Below are positions 3,430-32,791 of a stretch of DNA of 37,269 nucleotides, in pieces. The notes under the pieces were generated by a model. That model was given only the letters and a program-made list of their open reading frames with translations. It did not search any database and was not told where the DNA came from. Location: contig JAJUJH010000010.1 of the NCBI GenBank assembly GCA_029265435.1, positions 1-37,269 of the forward strand, given 5' to 3'. The stretch is from Clostridiales bacterium (lineage in GTDB: Bacteria > Bacillota > Clostridia > Christensenellales > SZUA-584). The first letter of the stretch is position 1. Every line of letters begins with the position of its first letter. The position numbers were made by a program, and so were the translations under genes.

Positions 3430-4338
3430 ATGTTCTGCAGCAAATGCGGTCAAAGCATTCCGGAAGGATCGGCCTTTTGCACTTCCTGCGGAAGTCCGCT
3501 CAAGAAGGATGGTCCGGCGGCCAGTCCGGTTCCGCCGTATCCGAATCAATGGGGATATGGCGCGCCGCAGCCGTTGTATCCACAGAGGAAAAAGCATACG
3601 GGACTTATTGCGGGCATTATTGCGGGCGTTGTTCTGATCGCCGCGGCGGCTGTCGCGCTTTTTGTGTGGCCGGGCTTTTTGATCGGGAACGATAACGCGC
3701 TGCTGGGTTTTTGGTACAACGAAGACCGTGCGGAAGCCATCGAGTTTAAAAGCAGCAGTGTGCGCGTCTATACGACGGAAAAAAACTACAAGGGAGAGTA
3801 CGAGTATGACGCCGCAAAGGCAAGAGGCGTGATTACGGTGGATGAAAATGACGTCGATTTCGCGCTCACGGAAGACGGGCTTGAAGTTGACGGCATCGGC
3901 GTTTATGTCAAAGCCGACGATGACTTTGACGCGGATGATTTCATAAAAGAAGCGATGGCCGCAATGGCGCCGGCAACCGCCGAGCCGGCGGCTGAGCCTT
4001 CTCAAGCGGTTCCGGCGGATCCGTCCGAGGCGCCGACAGCAAGCATCGCAGCCGTGTCGTCGGACGATATTCTCGGCCTTTGGTACGAAACCACCGGCTA
4101 CGGCGGAACGCTTGAGTTTTACGTTGACGGCACATACACCATCACGATGATGGGCGTTGCGGTGAACGGAACGTATGAGTACGACGCCGTATCGGGCTGC
4201 GGAACGATATATGAGGAATTGAGCGGGACGGAGTATCCGCTGACGATATCCGACGGTTTGCTCACGATAGATTCTTTGCAGTATACGCGCGATTATGTGG
4301 AGCAGTATGATTTGAACGATTTGGAGAACGCAGGTTAA
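3430..4338 (+). CDS. Zinc-ribbon membrane protein with two lipocalin-like repeats
   Basis: A 302-residue protein of unknown function. Residues 3-20 form a zinc ribbon (Cys3, Cys6, Cys17, Cys20), followed by a Pro/Tyr-rich linker and one membrane helix at about 58-80. Two beta-rich repeats of roughly 75-85 residues follow (about 91-165 and 212-295), joined by an Ala/Pro/Glu-rich linker. Each repeat starts LLGFWYN or ILGLWYE and contains alternating strands with a GxYxYD motif, resembling the lipocalin-like DUF5640 type of domain (tentative family call). The second repeat ends with TRDYVEQYDLNDLE, a tail also found in the next gene. The expected topology is zinc ribbon inside and beta domains outside. 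An AGGAG precedes the ATG. The two repeats probably arose by internal duplication, the second being closer to the single domain of the neighbour. Confidence 0.75.
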   Translation: MFCSKCGQSIPEGSAFCTSCGSPLKKDGPAASPVPPYPNQWGYGAPQPLYPQRKKHTGLIAGIIAGVVLIAAAAVALFVWPGFLIGNDNALLGFWYNEDRAEAIEFKSSSVRVYTTEKNYKGEYEYDAAKARGVITVDENDVDFALTEDGLEVDGIGVYVKADDDFDADDFIKEAMAAMAPATAEPAAEPSQAVPADPSEAPTASIAAVSSDDILGLWYETTGYGGTLEFYVDGTYTITMMGVAVNGTYEYDAVSGCGTIYEELSGTEYPLTISDGLLTIDSLQYTRDYVEQYDLNDLENAG

Positions 4339-4374: not shown

Positions 4375-4935
4375 ATGTATTGTCAAAAGTGTGGTCAACA
4401 ATTGGAGGACGGAGCACAGTTCTGCACAAAGTGCGGCGCCGCCGTTCAAAATATGCCGCAGCAGCCGCAAACGCCGCCGTCAGCCTTCGGATATCAGGCG
4501 TACGGACAAAGCGGTGCGCCGGTTCGGCCGAAATCCCGTAAAGGCCTGATTATCGGCCTGTCGGCAGGCGGTGCGGCACTTGCCGTTTTTCTGATTCTTT
4601 TGTTTATCGTCATTTTGCCGGGCGGGGGAAAGAGTGAGCTTGTGGGCACGTGGTACGAGCAAACCGGCTACGGCGGCTCGATCGAATTCAAAGCCGACGG
4701 CACTTATGACTATAACGCCATGGGATTTCCGATATCCGGAAAGTATACGTTTAACAGCACGAGCAAAACGGGCGAAATGCAAATTGAAATGATGGGCGTC
4801 AGCCAGAACATGAGCTTTAAGCTTGACGGCAACACGCTGCTTATGGAAGGGTCTGTTTTTACGCGCGATTATGTGGAGCAGCAGGACCTTTCGGATATGC
4901 TTGGCGATCTCGATATGGGAAGCATGTTCGAATAA
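4375..4935 (+). CDS. Zinc-ribbon membrane protein with one lipocalin-like domain
   Basis: A 186-residue paralogue of the preceding protein. It has a zinc ribbon (Cys3, Cys6, Cys17, Cys20), a Gln/Pro-rich linker, a membrane helix at about 57-82, and one beta-rich domain (about 87-175) that starts LVGTWYEQTGYGG. Its C-terminal FTRDYVEQQDLSDM closely matches the tail of the second repeat in the previous gene. A GGAGG lies ahead of the ATG, and the gap from the previous gene is only 36 bases with no terminator, so the two are probably one transcript. The function is unknown; the exposed beta domain may bind a ligand or the cell wall. A strong terminator follows. Confidence 0.75.
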   Translation: MYCQKCGQQLEDGAQFCTKCGAAVQNMPQQPQTPPSAFGYQAYGQSGAPVRPKSRKGLIIGLSAGGAALAVFLILLFIVILPGGGKSELVGTWYEQTGYGGSIEFKADGTYDYNAMGFPISGKYTFNSTSKTGEMQIEMMGVSQNMSFKLDGNTLLMEGSVFTRDYVEQQDLSDMLGDLDMGSMFE

Positions 4936-4996: not shown

Positions 4997-5057
4997 CCGT
5001 TTCGGATAGATAGTTTTTTTGCATGTTAAAGAATTGGAGCCATTTCGGCGGCTTTTG

Positions 5058-5086
5058 TTGTGTTTTGCGAACGGGCGTGATAAAAT
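5058..5086 (+). promoter_or_regulatory. Promoter of the CotH gene, sharing a motif with the VTC gene promoter
   Basis: A -35 TTGTGT, a 17-bp spacer and a -10 TAAAAT end about 55 bases before the TTG start. The spacer and flanks are almost the same as in the promoter at 8266-8294: about 27 of 31 positions match, including TTTTGCG, CGGGCGTGATA and AATCA. Spacer sequence is normally free to vary, so its conservation suggests a bound regulator or a recent duplication. Confidence 0.65.
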
Positions 5087-5141: not shown

Positions 5142-8100
5142 TTGAGAGCATTTAAAAGCATTTTAGCGATTATCGTCATTGCCGCGCTGTGCGTCGGTGT
5201 GTTTTTGATATTTGAAAAAGACAACCATATATCATCTTCCGCAGAGCCTTCAACGGCGGGTCTGGCGCAGGGTTCGGTTGTCATCAACGAGTTTATGGCC
5301 TCAAACGGCGGCTGCTTTGTTGACGACAAAGGAAACAGCAGCGACTGGATCGAGTTTTACAATCCGGGAAGTACCGATGTGAGCCTTTCCGGCCTGGGGA
5401 TATCGGACGATAAAAGCACGGTCAAATGGGCGTTCCCTGATGTCACTCTTAAAGCGGGCGGCTATCTTGTCGTATTTGCTTCGGGCAAATCGGAAAACGA
5501 TCCCGGCGGTACGCTCCATGCCGGATTCAAGCTGAGCGCGGACGGCGGCGGCATCTATCTGATGGATTCCTCAGGCAAGATCGTTGACGAAGCGGAATAT
5601 GAGAGCCAGACGAAGAACGTATCCGTGGGAAGGCTTGCGTCCGACATCACCACATGGAGCGCATTTGACAGCCCGACGCCCGGCTTTTCCAATGATGAAA
5701 CGGGCGCTCAGGCGTTTAGGGACAGCCGGTATGCGCCGGACACATCGCTGCTGATCACCGAAGTGATGGCCGGCAATAAAACCACCCTTACGGACAACAA
5801 CGGCGCATACAGCGATTACATTGAGATTTACAACAAAGGCGCCGAGCCGGTGAACCTGCTTGGCTACGGACTTTCCGACGATATCGGGAACGTGCTCGGC
5901 TGGAAGTTTCCCGACGTGACGATACAGCCGGGGGCGTATATGGTCGTTTTCGCGTCGGGCGAAGACATAAAAGCGACGGATATCGAAAAAGGCGCCATCC
6001 ATACAAACTTCGGCATATCATCCTATGAAGAGCAGATCACGCTGGCATCGCCCGCCGGGCTGATACTCGATCAGGTTACCGTCACCGAATCACAGGCGGA
6101 CATGGCATATGTGCGCACGTTTGACGGTAGCGCATATACGAACGACTGGACGTTTTCGAGCAAACCGTCACCCGGGTATGTGAATACCGACGAAGGAAAC
6201 CGGCAGTTCGTCGCGGCCAATCCCCTCGCGCTTGGAGACGTTATCATCAGCGAGGTGATGACGTCCAACCAGCAGTATCTGCCCGAGGACAACGGCGAAA
6301 CATACGACTGGATTGAGCTGTATAACCGCGGCAGCCAGGCCGTAAACCTGTCGGGATACGGACTGACGGACAACACGGGCAACCCCGCCAAATTCCGCCT
6401 TCCGGATAAAACGCTCGCACCGGGGGAGTATTATACGGTGCTTGCGTCCGGACTCGCGAACGACGATTCCATAAAAAAAAACTATGTGCATACCAGCTTT
6501 AAGCTGAGCGCAGGCGGAGAGATCCTCGCGCTTTTTAATGCCGACGGCGTTTTGCAGGACAAGCTCAATATCGATACGCTGCCGCGCGGTTTATCCGTGG
6601 GGCGCATGCCGCAGCAGGACGGTGTTTTTTATTTTACGCAGCCGACGCCCGGCGCGGCGAACACAAACCCGTGCGCAGGTTTTGTCGCCGAACCCAAAGC
6701 CGACGTTGCGCCGGGCAGCTATCCGTCCGCGCAGACGGTCACGCTCTCGTGCGCCACGGAGGGCGCTTCCATCTATTACTCCACCGACGGCTCGGTTCCC
6801 ACCGCATCTTCCACGCCGTATACCGGCCCTATCCAGATGAGCCAAACGGGCCTTATCCGCGCGCGTGCGTTTAAAGACGGTTTTCTCGACAGCGAAACGA
6901 TGACGGCGACGTATATCATCGGCGCGTCGCACACGCTGCCCGTCATCTCGCTTGTGTGCAACCCGGACGATTTATTCAACCCGCAGACGGGCATCTATAT
7001 GCTGGGCCCGGACGCACAGCTTATCGAAGGCTCAACAGAGCATTATGAGGTTGCCAACTATCTGAAAAGAGGCAAGGAAAGCGAACGTCCCGCTTCGTTT
7101 GAGGTGTTCGACGAGAGCGGCAGGCAGGTGTTCGAGCAGAATGTCGCCATTCGCATACAGGGCGGCTTCAGCCGCGACAACCAGCAGAAATCGTTTGCGG
7201 TGATCGCCCGCAGCGAGTACGGCAAAGGCTCCATGGCGTATCCGTTTTTCCCCGATCTGCCGTTTACCGAATACAAATCGGTCGTATTGCGGTGCGGCGG
7301 GCAGGATCAGCTGTATGCCAAAATCAAGGAAGCGGTGATATTAAAGCTTCTCGGCGGGAAGACCAACTTCTTATCCCAAAGCTATAAGACCTATGTGGTT
7401 TACCTGAACGGGCAGTACTGGGGCGTATACTTCCTGCAAGAGAAGCGTACGACCAATTTTGTGGCGCAGCACGAAAATGTAGAGGATCCCGACAGCATCA
7501 ATCTGGTGGTGGGTTCCGGCACGAGCAGCGACTCGAGGCATTTGATCAACGGCTCAAACGAGAGCTATAAAGCGCTTCTTGAGTATGTCAATACGCATGA
7601 CATGTCCGTTAAGGAGAACTTTGACCATGTGGCGGAGCAGCTCGATACCGACAGCTTCATGGATACCATGATCCATGAGATTTATCTCGCCAATTCGGAT
7701 TACTATAATATGGAGTTTTATCAGGTACCGGGCGGCAAATGGAAACAGATTTTCTACGATATGTGCTGGGCTTTCAACAAGCCGACACACGAGACACTCT
7801 CACGGCGCATGGCGAGCGATGTCTGCGGTTCGACGATGTTCAATGCACTGCTTTCCTATCAGCCATGGAAAGAAGCGTTTATGAAGCGCATGGCATGGTC
7901 GATGGAGCAGTTTTATACCGTTGACAGCCTGACGGGCGTGATCGACGAAGTGGCGGCTTCCGTGGCGTCCGAGATGCCGGCGGAACGGGCCAAATTCACC
8001 GATGCGAAGACGAACTGGGAGGATTCCGTCGAGAATCTGCGCACATTCGCCAAACAGCGCCCGTACGAAATGCTCAAGCAGTTAAAAAGCGTTTTCGGCA

Positions 8101-8201
8101 TATCCGGCTCAACGCTGAGGAGCTATTTTGATTTTACCGACGAACAAATGAAGACGGGCTTCAATTTGTCGGATGATAAGATGAGCAGCCTTTTCGGTTA
8201 A
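5142..8201 (+). CDS. CotH kinase family protein with three lamin-tail domains
   Basis: A 1019-residue membrane-anchored surface protein. An N-terminal helix (about 7-24) is followed by three lamin-tail domains starting near residues 45, 202 and 365 (VVINEFMASN, LLITEVMAGN, VIISEVMTSN, each with a DWIEFYN- or DYIEIYN-like motif). A chitobiase/beta-hexosaminidase C-terminal-like domain (about 520-590, YYSTDGSVPT) and a CotH domain (about 595-1000) complete it. CotH proteins are atypical protein kinases; B. subtilis CotH phosphorylates spore-coat proteins. The TTG at 5142 has GAGGAG nearby and leads straight into the signal helix; the longer frame would put the promoter inside the gene. In the CotH core the usual DxD-type motif reads Asp873-Met-Cys875, so the second acidic residue is missing. 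The next two genes (VTC, DUF4956) are regular partners of this family in Gram-positive bacteria. Confidence 0.88.
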   Translation: MRAFKSILAIIVIAALCVGVFLIFEKDNHISSSAEPSTAGLAQGSVVINEFMASNGGCFVDDKGNSSDWIEFYNPGSTDVSLSGLGISDDKSTVKWAFPDVTLKAGGYLVVFASGKSENDPGGTLHAGFKLSADGGGIYLMDSSGKIVDEAEYESQTKNVSVGRLASDITTWSAFDSPTPGFSNDETGAQAFRDSRYAPDTSLLITEVMAGNKTTLTDNNGAYSDYIEIYNKGAEPVNLLGYGLSDDIGNVLGWKFPDVTIQPGAYMVVFASGEDIKATDIEKGAIHTNFGISSYEEQITLASPAGLILDQVTVTESQADMAYVRTFDGSAYTNDWTFSSKPSPGYVNTDEGNRQFVAANPLALGDVIISEVMTSNQQYLPEDNGETYDWIELYNRGSQAVNLSGYGLTDNTGNPAKFRLPDKTLAPGEYYTVLASGLANDDSIKKNYVHTSFKLSAGGEILALFNADGVLQDKLNIDTLPRGLSVGRMPQQDGVFYFTQPTPGAANTNPCAGFVAEPKADVAPGSYPSAQTVTLSCATEGASIYYSTDGSVPTASSTPYTGPIQMSQTGLIRARAFKDGFLDSETMTATYIIGASHTLPVISLVCNPDDLFNPQTGIYMLGPDAQLIEGSTEHYEVANYLKRGKESERPASFEVFDESGRQVFEQNVAIRIQGGFSRDNQQKSFAVIARSEYGKGSMAYPFFPDLPFTEYKSVVLRCGGQDQLYAKIKEAVILKLLGGKTNFLSQSYKTYVVYLNGQYWGVYFLQEKRTTNFVAQHENVEDPDSINLVVGSGTSSDSRHLINGSNESYKALLEYVNTHDMSVKENFDHVAEQLDTDSFMDTMIHEIYLANSDYYNMEFYQVPGGKWKQIFYDMCWAFNKPTHETLSRRMASDVCGSTMFNALLSYQPWKEAFMKRMAWSMEQFYTVDSLTGVIDEVAASVASEMPAERAKFTDAKTNWEDSVENLRTFAKQRPYEMLKQLKSVFGISGSTLRSYFDFTDEQMKTGFNLSDDKMSSLFG

Positions 8202-8265
8202 CGGCATATGAGAGAATGCCAAAACGCATGCGCTTGCTTAAAATGGCAGAGAGCGGCTGATGCTG

Positions 8266-8294
8266 TTGTTTTTTGCGTCCGGGCGTGATACAAT
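8266..8294 (+). promoter_or_regulatory. Promoter of the VTC-DUF4956 operon
   Basis: A -35 TTGTTT, a 17-bp spacer and a -10 TACAAT lie in the CotH-VTC gap. The element is a near copy of the CotH promoter at 5058-5086. The predicted transcript has a leader of about 125 bases, containing a perfect CCGCGC/GCGCGG hairpin at 8386-8402 about 24 bases before the start codon. Confidence 0.65.
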
Positions 8295-8425
8295 CATTCG
8301 AGGCTTTACATAAAGTTAACAAAACGCCGCACAAACGGATGCGCCAGTATTCAAAAGCCGCGGCATCGGACCGGTTCATCATGAGCCGCGCGAAATGCGC
8401 GGATGGGTTATCAGTTAGGGGAAAC

Positions 8426-9613
8426 ATGGCACGGGATGAGGAAATTTTCAGAAAACTGAAAAAGCAGACGCCGCTCGTCAAGCGCGCGGATATTCAGCCG
8501 TTGTCGCCGCAGGATTTTGACGGACGCAAAAGCGGAATGACGGTTAATCGGCCGATTGAGAGAAAAACGGCGCCAAAAGCGGTGCGAGCCGTCGGCGCGG
8601 CTTCAAAGAAAACCGAAAAGCGCGGCGCCGAACTGGCCGAGCGCTATAACAGCGCACGCCGTCAGTCCGGCAAAAAAGCCGAGCTTGGCATTTTCGGCGA
8701 AGACGCCAAAAAGAATAAACCGTCGGGCGGAAAGGTTCAAAGGCAGCCGGAACGGCCGGATTCGCTTGAGTTTCACACGCCCGCCAAAGCGCCGCGGCAG
8801 GCTGCTGACCGTTCGGGGATTGCTTCGCATACCGACCTGCATGATTTGGATTATCTGCGGATGCCCGTTCAAAACACGTTCTTCGCAAACAGCCGCCTCT
8901 CTGTCGGCGCGGAGCCGGAGGAAGATGAAAAGCTCGAATTCCGGCATGAGCTGAAATTTTATATCAACTATCACGATTATGTCCTACTGCGCAACACGCT
9001 CAAGGCGCTGCTTCCCGTTGACCGCAATGCAAACGCGGACGGTCAGTATTTTATCCGCAGCGTGTATTTTGACGATGTGTATGAGACATCGCTCGTCGAA
9101 AAGCTCTCGGGTGTGGAAGACAGGAGCAAATTTCGGATACGGTTCTACAATTTCAACGACAATGTGATCCGTTTCGAGAAGAAAATTAAACGCGAGCAGT
9201 TTATATCGAAGGCCAGCATCTGCCTTTCGCGCGATGACTGCGACAGCCTGATGGCGGGAGACTGCGGCGTGCTTGAGGGACGGAGAGAACCTCTGGCCGG
9301 TGAAATCTATTTGCAGATGAAAAATAATTCTTTAAAGCCGCGCGTGATTGTGGACTATTGGCGCGAGGCGTATGTATCGCCGCTGGAAAACGTCCGCATC
9401 ACGTTTGATAAAGACATTAAGGGCGGGCTCGGGCTTACGGACATATTCAGTCCGTCTGTGCCGACGATGCCGGCGCTTGACGAGGGATTCATGGTGCTCG
9501 AGGTCAAATTCCGCCGGTATCTGCCCGAATATATCAAGGCGGTGCTCAGCAATGTCAACACGGCTCAAAGAAGCGCGATATCAAAATATGTGCTTTGCAG
9601 AAAGTTTGAATAG
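8426..9613 (+). CDS. VTC-domain polyphosphate polymerase family protein with long basic N-terminal extension
   Basis: A 395-residue protein. Its C-terminal part (about 165-395) is a VTC domain, the tunnel-fold catalytic module that makes polyphosphate from nucleoside triphosphate in yeast vacuoles. Visible signatures are RHELKF (from Arg173), YFDD, the basic strand KFRIRFY, FEKKIKRE, a VDYWREAY strand and the final EVKFRR. The first ~165 residues are rich in Lys, Arg and Ala, with no recognisable fold, and are probably disordered; bacterial family members are usually just the domain, about 230-270 residues. The ATG at 8426 follows TTAGGGGA; a longer frame to 8273 would overlap the promoter. 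The stop is 13 bases before the DUF4956 gene, so they form an operon. The substrate and product here are inferred from the family only. Confidence 0.85.
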   Translation: MARDEEIFRKLKKQTPLVKRADIQPLSPQDFDGRKSGMTVNRPIERKTAPKAVRAVGAASKKTEKRGAELAERYNSARRQSGKKAELGIFGEDAKKNKPSGGKVQRQPERPDSLEFHTPAKAPRQAADRSGIASHTDLHDLDYLRMPVQNTFFANSRLSVGAEPEEDEKLEFRHELKFYINYHDYVLLRNTLKALLPVDRNANADGQYFIRSVYFDDVYETSLVEKLSGVEDRSKFRIRFYNFNDNVIRFEKKIKREQFISKASICLSRDDCDSLMAGDCGVLEGRREPLAGEIYLQMKNNSLKPRVIVDYWREAYVSPLENVRITFDKDIKGGLGLTDIFSPSVPTMPALDEGFMVLEVKFRRYLPEYIKAVLSNVNTAQRSAISKYVLCRKFE

Positions 9614-9626
9614 GAGGAGATTTTAA

Positions 9627-10304
9627 ATGGGTGCAAACGACATTATCAAAAAGGGTATTCTGGACAATTTCCAGATGGTCGGCGACCTTACGCTGACGGA
9701 CGCAATCATCACGCTGGTTCTTGCGTTTGTGCTGGGGTTGTTCGTTTTCTTCATATACCGCCTGACTTTTACGGGCGTGATATTTGTGAAAAGCTTCGGA
9801 ACGGCGCTGATTATGCTGACGATGGTAACCGCAATGATTATCATGCCGATCACGCTCAACATCGGATTGGCGCTCGGCATGGTCGGCGCGCTGTCCATCG
9901 TGCGTTTCAGAACCGCCGTGAAAGATCCGCTTGATACGATATTCATGTTCTGGGCCATCGCATGCGGCATCACGCTTGGCGCGCAGCTATATGCCATCTC
10001 TTTGGTGTCTTCCGCGGCCATCGGCGTTTTTCTGCTGATATGGAACCTGTTCAAGTCGAAGAAGAACCTGCCCTTCATGCTGGTGCTGCGTTTTGACGAA
10101 GCGAGCAAGAAAGAGGTGCAGGCTGTGCTGCGAAAGCTGCCTTCCGGCAGGCTGAAATCCAAGATCGTATCGGAAGGCTATATCGAGCTGACGATCGAAA
10201 TGAATATCAAGGAAAACGAAGCGGGTATGATCGACGCGTTTTCGGCGATACCCGGCGTACAGAATGCGTCGCTGATCAGCTATAAAGGCGACGTGATTTC
10301 ATAA
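9627..10304 (+). CDS. DUF4956 family membrane protein
   Basis: A 225-residue integral membrane protein. Hydrophobic helices lie at about residues 24-46, 53-75, 76-92 and 104-140, followed by a cytoplasmic alpha/beta domain of about 80 residues with acylphosphatase-like strand pattern (LVLRFDEASK ... YIELTIEM). The stretch SIVRFRTAVKDPLDT (90-104) is the hallmark of DUF4956. An AGGAGGAG precedes the ATG. The family is of unknown function but repeatedly sits beside VTC-domain and CotH genes, so a role in exporting or using polyphosphate, or in supporting surface phosphorylation, is plausible but unproven. It is the last gene of the operon. Confidence 0.85.
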   Translation: MGANDIIKKGILDNFQMVGDLTLTDAIITLVLAFVLGLFVFFIYRLTFTGVIFVKSFGTALIMLTMVTAMIIMPITLNIGLALGMVGALSIVRFRTAVKDPLDTIFMFWAIACGITLGAQLYAISLVSSAAIGVFLLIWNLFKSKKNLPFMLVLRFDEASKKEVQAVLRKLPSGRLKSKIVSEGYIELTIEMNIKENEAGMIDAFSAIPGVQNASLISYKGDVIS

Positions 10305-10333: not shown

Positions 10334-10359
10334 AAGCCGCCTCCAAAAAGGGGCGGCTT
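10334..10359 (+). terminator. Terminator-like hairpin left of repeat copy B
   Basis: AAGCCGCC / GGCGGCTT, an 8-bp perfect stem with a 10-base loop, lies 30 bases after the DUF4956 stop. No T-run follows on the plus strand because repeat copy B begins immediately at 10360. The sequence is nearly the same as the hairpin at 10512-10539 on the other side of the repeat. On the minus strand it is followed by a weak T-rich stretch and could terminate the gene at 10558-11202. Confidence 0.6.
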
Positions 10360-10511: not shown

Positions 10512-10543
10512 AAGCCGCATCCAAAAAAAGGGGCGGCTTTTTT
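10512..10543 (+). terminator. Rho-independent terminator right of repeat copy B
   Basis: AAGCCGC / GCGGCTT with an A-rich loop runs directly into TTTTTT on the plus strand. This is the intact form of the duplicated hairpin and can end transcripts from the VTC-DUF4956 operon after they pass through the repeat. Confidence 0.75.
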
Positions 10544-32011: not shown

Positions 32012-32791
32012 ATGCGCATACTGATTGTAAACGACGACGGCATTCATGCCAAAGGCTTGCGGACACTGGCTGCGCGGCTCAACCGCGGTCACGATGTGAC
32101 GGTGGTCGCCCCCGAATCGGAGAGAAGCGCCACGTCGCATTCCATCACGATATACAGACCCTTGCGGGTCACAAAAACGCAGCCTTCGGGCCTTGAGGCC
32201 ATACCCTGTTATGTGGTGGACGGTCAGCCGGTGGACTGCACAAAGATCGGCATTGTCCATATTATGGGCGGGCGTGTCGATCTTGTTGTTTCCGGAATCA
32301 ACCACGGCGCCAATCTGGGCTCGGATATCATGTATTCCGGAACGGTGGCGGCCGCGCTTGACGCGGTAATTATGGGCCGAAAAGCGCTCGCGGTATCGTG
32401 CGCGTCCAAATATGCCGAGCATTTCGAGAGCGCGGCCGAAATGGCCGCCGGTCTCATCGACGGAGGGCTGTTTGACGGAGAGCCGGACAATGTGCTGTAT
32501 AATCTCAATGTGCCCGATCTCCCGCTTTCAAAGATCAACGGGATCAGAGTGACGTCTCAGGGGCGCACCGCGTACGACGACGAGGTGGAATTGCGCAGCG
32601 ATCCTCACGGTAGACAGTATATTTGGATGACGGGCAAGCTGCGCGAAGAGCCGTCGGAAGCCGAGACGGACGTTGAAGCCGTCCGGCAGGGTTATGCATC
32701 TTTAACGCCCATCAGGTATGACATGACCGCAAAAGAACAAATCGGACCGCTTACTTGCAGGATCAACAAAATGAAATTGCATTTTTCGTAA
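32012..32791 (+). CDS. surE: 5'/3'-nucleotidase SurE
   Basis: SurE is a metal-dependent phosphatase acting on nucleoside monophosphates, and in some species on short polyphosphate. The 259-residue protein begins MRILIVNDDGIHAKG, with Asp8 and Asp9 as metal ligands. ESERSATSHSIT carries Ser39, the conserved serine, and SGINHGANLGSD has the metal-binding Asn97. MYSGTVAAA completes the active site. GGGAGG precedes the ATG. It has its own promoter; the RpiR-type regulator gene follows 46 bases downstream with a promoter of its own. Confidence 0.95.
   Translation: MRILIVNDDGIHAKGLRTLAARLNRGHDVTVVAPESERSATSHSITIYRPLRVTKTQPSGLEAIPCYVVDGQPVDCTKIGIVHIMGGRVDLVVSGINHGANLGSDIMYSGTVAAALDAVIMGRKALAVSCASKYAEHFESAAEMAAGLIDGGLFDGEPDNVLYNLNVPDLPLSKINGIRVTSQGRTAYDDEVELRSDPHGRQYIWMTGKLREEPSEAETDVEAVRQGYASLTPIRYDMTAKEQIGPLTCRINKMKLHFS

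Follow-up and report, generated by a model that had tools for sequence, protein, structure and literature searches.

A CotH kinase gene beside a VTC-DUF4956 pair in a Clostridiales genome: a fixed core and an exchangeable surface partner

The cassette considered here consists of the genes cotH and vtc and a gene of the DUF4956 family, all on the forward strand, in a Clostridiales bacterium (assembly GCA_029265435.1, contig JAJUJH010000010.1). The window is the whole analysed stretch of this contig, positions 1 to 37,269 (37,269 nucleotides). An earlier note, made from the nucleotide sequence alone, had described here a CotH-type kinase with three lamin-tail domains and a chitobiase-type domain beside a VTC polymerase and a DUF4956 protein, and had read the group as a candidate surface phosphorylation module. 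A Pfam scan of the open reading frames (ORFs) of the window confirmed the cassette at this location, and the described composition was borne out by Pfam and by membrane-segment predictions. The best-supported reading of the comparative data is that VTC and DUF4956 form a fixed core, and that the surface partner, CotH in this genome, is exchangeable.

The cotH gene (5142..8201) encodes 1019 amino acids (aa) from a TTG start at 5142, preceded by a good ribosome-binding site, AGGAGA. The protein has a single N-terminal transmembrane (TM) anchor (aa 6-24), three lamin-tail domains (LTD, E 2.5e-54), a chitobiase-type C-terminal domain (CHB_HEX_C_1, 2.7e-22) and a CotH kinase domain (2.4e-29). In the kinase domain, assigned by Pfam to 7149..8063 (+), Asp853 and Asp873 fall in the alignment columns of Asp228 and Asp251 of Bacillus subtilis CotH. 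Both Asp residues are invariant in 20/20 relatives, and the B. subtilis variants D228Q and D251A are catalytically inactive (PMC7821199). Searches of the PDB with single sequences returned nothing, and CotH was found through the family profile. The best matches of the predicted fold are the B. cereus CotH kinase structures 5jda and 5jd9 (E 3.4e-12, TMt 0.75), the top one holding Mg2+/AMP, and the predicted fold of the repeats matches human lamin tails.

The kinase fold and the catalytic positions are thus shared with the spore-coat kinase of B. subtilis and B. cereus. However, the window protein is anchored outside the membrane and is linked to VTC. Four spore-type CotHs were compared. Three of them (L042, L043, L046), taken from the first Met as the likely start, show no hydrophobic stretch at the N-terminus (15-residue maxima 0.57, 0.16 and 0.97); the fourth, L041, was left out, as its Met is internal, 97 residues into a 373-residue frame. 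PMC7821199 counts the source of ATP for the spore enzyme among the open questions. A second LTD-bearing CotH gene, with four lamin tails, is present in the same genome (G000:C42:23654-24592; L051:9583-12993), and the 20 kb of surrounding sequence that were retrieved showed neither VTC nor DUF4956.

The vtc gene (8426..9613, +; Pfam VTC 1.5e-38) encodes a 395-aa polyphosphate polymerase-type protein of the VTC/TTM fold, with the start best placed at ATG 8426 (ribosome-binding site TTAGGGG). No TM segments were predicted in it. The first 168 aa (8426..8929, +) form a low-complexity extension rich in K/R, D/E and S/T/P/G/A. Most VTC homologues have about 230 aa and lack such an extension; the congeners L217 and L219, as well as L218 from the same family, have similar low-complexity extensions, and that of L223, from the same order, is longer. 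The family profile matches the yeast Vtc4 structures (3g3q, E 6.5e-22), whereas a PDB search with the single sequence retrieved no chain. The equivalents of Vtc4 K200, R264, R266, K281, K294, Y359, R361, R373, D377, E426 and K428 are invariant in 68/68 homologues, and that of K458 is kept in 67/68; K455 is not conserved. Replacement by Glu at certain TTM positions marks hydrolases, and the tripolyphosphatase AtTTM3 has four such Glu residues (PMC4641920). By our reading of the alignment, three of these four positions, mapped to R5, K94 and K193 (domain numbering), are basic, as in Vtc4, and the fourth, E7, is Glu. At residue level the assignment of VTC to the polymerase type is well supported, although the exit path, with both basic and acidic positions, points in both directions. 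In vivo, VTC would make polyphosphate, as proposed in the earlier note. With the yeast VTC complex (Vtc4/Vtc3/Vtc1) the window protein shares a catalytic TTM domain that keeps the active-site residues of Vtc4, but it lacks an SPX domain (Pfam), and its membrane partner is MgtC-like.

This partner is encoded by the DUF4956 gene (9627..10304, +; 225 aa, Pfam DUF4956 4.2e-9). The protein has about five hydrophobic segments, and in its AlphaFold2 model (pLDDT 84) several membrane helices are followed by an alpha-beta domain at the C-terminus. The top Foldseek match is the C-terminal domain of MgtC (2lqj, E 7.9e-3), and a profile alignment of DUF4956 with MgtC (hhalign) has a probability of 96.6% and E 5e-10 over 193 columns. 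Judging from these comparisons, DUF4956 is a remote relative of MgtC across both the TM and the ACT-like parts, a relation also noted in PMC12345266. Both proteins have a membrane domain followed by a C-terminal ACT-like domain. On the other hand, the window protein has no Pfam MgtC match at the curated cut-off, and DUF4956 does not show the GLERE...RTH motif that MgtC has at its N-terminus. One DUF4956 protein of the sample, a sister in genome G024, matches MgtC with 20.5 bits, below the cut-off of 31.4. The family has a signature, LGMVGALSIVRFR-x-A-x-K-x-P-x-D (9873..9935, +), in which R93, R95 and K99 are invariant in 66/66 sequences.

The genes cotH and vtc are each preceded by a promoter-like motif: motif A upstream of cotH (5056..5086, +), TGTTGTGTTTTGCGAACGGGCGTGATAAAAT, and motif B upstream of vtc (8264..8294, +), TGTTGTTTTTTGCGTCCGGGCGTGATACAAT. 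They agree at 27/31 bases, with the common sequence TGTTGTnTTTTGCnnnnnnGCGTGATAnAAT. In a scan of the 2.59 Mb host genome allowing at most three mismatches, A and B were the sole two matches, and the reversed control gave none. The congener G486 has exactly two matches, upstream of the same two genes. The pair was not seen in the congener G445 or in two other members of the family. Although the motifs are promoter-like, motifs alone are no proof of promoters. A general genome-wide promoter type was considered and rejected, since there are only two matches in the genome.

The distribution of the families was analysed in a phylum sample of 398 genomes. VTC is present in 64 genomes and DUF4956 in the identical 64 (hypergeometric p ~1e-75, uncorrected for phylogeny); counted by genus, each occurs in 48/267. 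In an order sample of 121 genomes, VTC was found in 48 and DUF4956 in 49, with 48 shared; the lone genome with DUF4956 only (G497) is 73% complete, and its match lies at a contig start. Both families occur in the same 3/14 control genomes, Bacteroides ihuae, Corynebacterium glutamicum and Methanosarcina acetivorans. In 69/72 VTC loci of the phylum sample, a DUF4956 gene is encoded on the strand of VTC at a distance of no more than 5 kb; the median spacing between the two domains is 41 bp. The other three loci comprise a partial VTC gene (L057), a VTC at a contig start (L070) and one standing alone (L117). The VTC and DUF4956 distance matrices correlate with r 0.95, to which shared organismal history contributes.

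CotH follows this pattern only in part. It is present in 50/64 VTC-DUF4956 genomes of the phylum sample and absent from 14/64, and six genomes have CotH without VTC. In the order, it accompanies VTC in 45/48 genomes, and 19/64 CotH genomes lack VTC. Since CotH is only partly tied to the pair, we regard it as a partner outside the core. An independent distribution of the three families, which would have refuted the earlier note, was thus not seen for VTC and DUF4956, which are inseparable, while CotH varies in part on its own. The reading of the earlier note is partly supported. No fusions among VTC, DUF4956, CotH and Cthe_2159 were found in 161 loci, the sole fusion seen being PelG-CotH. Fusion proteins were thus rejected as direct evidence of contact within the cassette.

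When CotH is missing, its place is usually filled by Cthe_2159 (PF14262), a carbohydrate-binding family. Of the 72 VTC loci of the phylum sample, 44 have CotH as their third gene and 21 have Cthe_2159, one locus being counted under both, and eight have neither, so a surface partner stands with VTC in 64/72 loci. An N-terminal hydrophobic segment was found in 108/112 CotHs, nearly all of them linked to VTC, and in 28/35 Cthe_2159 proteins of the loci. On a tree of 147 VTC+DUF4956 pairs, the partner label (CotH or Cthe_2159) needs at least 12 parsimony changes, the starred branches force seven changes for Cthe_2159, and the LTD-bearing CotHs need four; this is a quick FastTree tree with long branches flagged, and the counts are rough. 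The rows nearest to the window all belong to the LTD group. CotH and Cthe_2159 are thus partners that can be exchanged for each other, and the module does not depend on a kinase. Surface phosphorylation is at most one of its uses. At one locus, a leucine-rich-repeat protein is encoded between DUF4956 and CotH (L099:8431-9108). At another, a CBS-DRTGG-DHH-DHHA2 protein, with the architecture of family II inorganic pyrophosphatases, is encoded a few genes upstream of CotH-VTC-DUF4956 (L139:2280-3911).

The same three families are known from the accessory group of Gram-positive pel loci, earlier work, knock-outs included, to which the earlier note makes no reference. Whitfield et al. (2020) describe cotH, polyphosphate polymerase, DUF4956 and DUF4832 genes beside pelDEADAFG, with which the trio is contiguous in members of the streptococci, clostridia and bifidobacteria (PMC7112168). 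As in the window, the genes of the accessory group SIR_1594-SIR_1593-SIR_1592 of Streptococcus intermedius adjoin one another and encode an extracytoplasmic CotH and a DUF4956 protein with MgtC-like TM and ACT domains (PMC7112168, PMC12345266). However, the window and most of its relatives lie outside any pel cluster, a chitobiase-type domain accompanies the three lamin tails of the window CotH, and the window vtc has its own promoter-like motif. In C. perfringens NELoc-2 (CP4_0460-0465), too, VTC genes have as neighbours a CotH gene and genes for membrane proteins of 222-226 aa, but this locus has two VTC copies and a nearby GT2 gene (PMC2879425).

According to the 2025 S. intermedius study, synteny of the trio was not found outside Pel loci (PMC12345266). 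The present data correct this view and separate the fixed VTC-DUF4956 core from its exchangeable surface partner. PelG scored at or above the cut-off in 3/64 VTC-DUF4956 genomes (G105, G136, G397), the other 61 having no match that reaches it; two more VTC genomes had sub-threshold matches, and PelG was found in 1/16 genomes without VTC. It adjoins the cassette in G105 and G397 and lies on a separate contig in G136. In genomes without PelG, CotH joins VTC-DUF4956 in most loci, and elsewhere it is replaced or absent. No PelG above the cut-off was found in the host genome, and no pel genes among the window ORFs scanned. The neighbours of the trio in the relatives of the window are gyrA and genes for a CCA-adding-type enzyme, a UvrD-type helicase or an MgsA-type ATPase.

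As a mechanism, we tentatively propose that VTC and DUF4956 act as one machine by which polyphosphate is made inside, passed outward and used by a surface protein; we consider this the likeliest reading, if short of an even chance. Drawing on ATP, VTC would build the phosphate chain in the cytosol. DUF4956, with its MgtC-like fold and the three invariant basic residues of the signature, may receive or gate the chain at the membrane and hand either the polymer or phosphate derived from the polymer to the outside. There it would be used by a surface protein with a membrane anchor: CotH in the window and Cthe_2159 elsewhere. In favour of the scheme are the co-distribution, adjacency and correlated distances of VTC and DUF4956, the conserved Vtc4-type residues, the lack of PPK1 and PPK2 matches in the host genome, and the N-terminal hydrophobic segments of the surface partners. 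The window CotH might in this way phosphorylate surface or matrix material, which is the weakest step of the scheme. There is a precedent in yeast, where polyphosphate that Vtc4 has made in the cytosol is translocated by the VTC complex (PMC4641920). A bolder version seems to us improbable: VTC-DUF4956 would be a bacterial polyphosphate synthase-exporter, in which an MgtC-like partner replaces the eukaryotic channel and the polymer feeds a kinase at the outer face, where ATP is unavailable.

Several observations weigh against the proposed machine. DUF4956 resembles MgtC, which is known for regulatory roles, and none of its top 50 fold matches is a Vtc chain. In our alignment, the bacterial VTCs have a Glu, E7, at the position of Thr198 of Vtc4, and this residue belongs to the acidic patch of hydrolases. 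Since CotH is swapped for a non-kinase, the module cannot have phosphotransfer as its general output. Finally, no change in Pel or aggregation was reported for S. intermedius upon deletion of SIR_1593 (VTC), unlike the deletions of the DUF4956 and cotH genes (PMC12345266), which is a poor fit if both of these act solely via polyphosphate.

These deletions lead to the first alternative, an exopolysaccharide accessory module. CotH would modify or regulate a matrix polysaccharide that the cell exports, or else the machinery that exports it, VTC-DUF4956 would tune it from inside, and polyphosphate would stay unexported. Deletion of SIR_1592 (DUF4956) led to more Pel and that of SIR_1594 (cotH) to less, with less aggregation in both cases (PMC12345266). 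The contiguity with pelDEADAFG, the GT2 gene of NELoc-2 and the carbohydrate-binding nature of Cthe_2159 point in the same direction, as does an in-frame fusion of PelG to CotH, followed by VTC and DUF4956, in three Paenibacillus genomes (L138:5983-9249, L143:6167-9277, L144:6143-9250). However, the rarity of PelG among VTC-DUF4956 genomes and its absence from the host argue against this explanation, as do the neighbours of the cassettes in the relatives, such as gyrA; the Pfam scan found no glycosyltransferase or export gene directly beside the window cassette. On balance we hold it to be somewhat unlikely, though a serious candidate. No mention of the PelG-CotH fusion was found in the available text of the two Pel papers (PMC7112168, PMC12345266). 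The fusion junction has a lipobox-like stretch.

A second alternative is homeostasis of phosphate, Mg2+ or ATP: DUF4956 would be a regulator like MgtC, VTC would store phosphate in the cytosol as a polyphosphate buffer, and the surface protein would be a loose passenger. The relation to MgtC over the TM and ACT-like parts is consistent with this, and 33/72 loci have two-component genes, for a response regulator, a histidine kinase or both, at most 5.5 kb from VTC. But a loose passenger would hardly be expected beside VTC in 64/72 loci, nor would a private promoter-like motif shared by cotH and vtc in two species of the genus, and we consider this explanation unlikely. That the genes are chance neighbours without a shared function, as the CotH genomes of the order lacking VTC might suggest, is very improbable and already disfavoured by the identical distribution of VTC and DUF4956, the adjacency kept across different chromosomal contexts and the paired motifs.

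Because it unites an extracytoplasmic kinase with a polymerase and a membrane protein, the cassette is a good place for testing how a kinase outside the cell is supplied with phosphate. PPK1 and PPK2 were not found in the host genome (95.5% complete), so one deletion could reveal whether VTC is the polyphosphate source. PPK1 is present in 18/64 VTC genomes of the phylum sample.

Upstream of cotH, an adjacent pair of genes (3430-4338 and 4375-4935) encodes zinc-ribbon proteins with a hydrophobic segment, the second of which has a lipocalin-like DUF4923 match. The DUF4956 gene is followed by the dcw cluster mraZ/mraW/ftsL/spoVD. In a contig scan with DUF4956, the ORFs after its closest relative (L131, 72% identical) are similar to the downstream genes of the window in length, the only property compared, and the chromosomal position is thus probably common to both. 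No Rfam elements were found in the window. Two similar GC-rich hairpin-like stretches, with the common core aaaaaggggcggctt, lie after the DUF4956 gene (10336-10358 and 10517-10539). The window also encodes SurE (32012-32791); the SurE protein of E. coli has been reported to hydrolyse polyphosphate.

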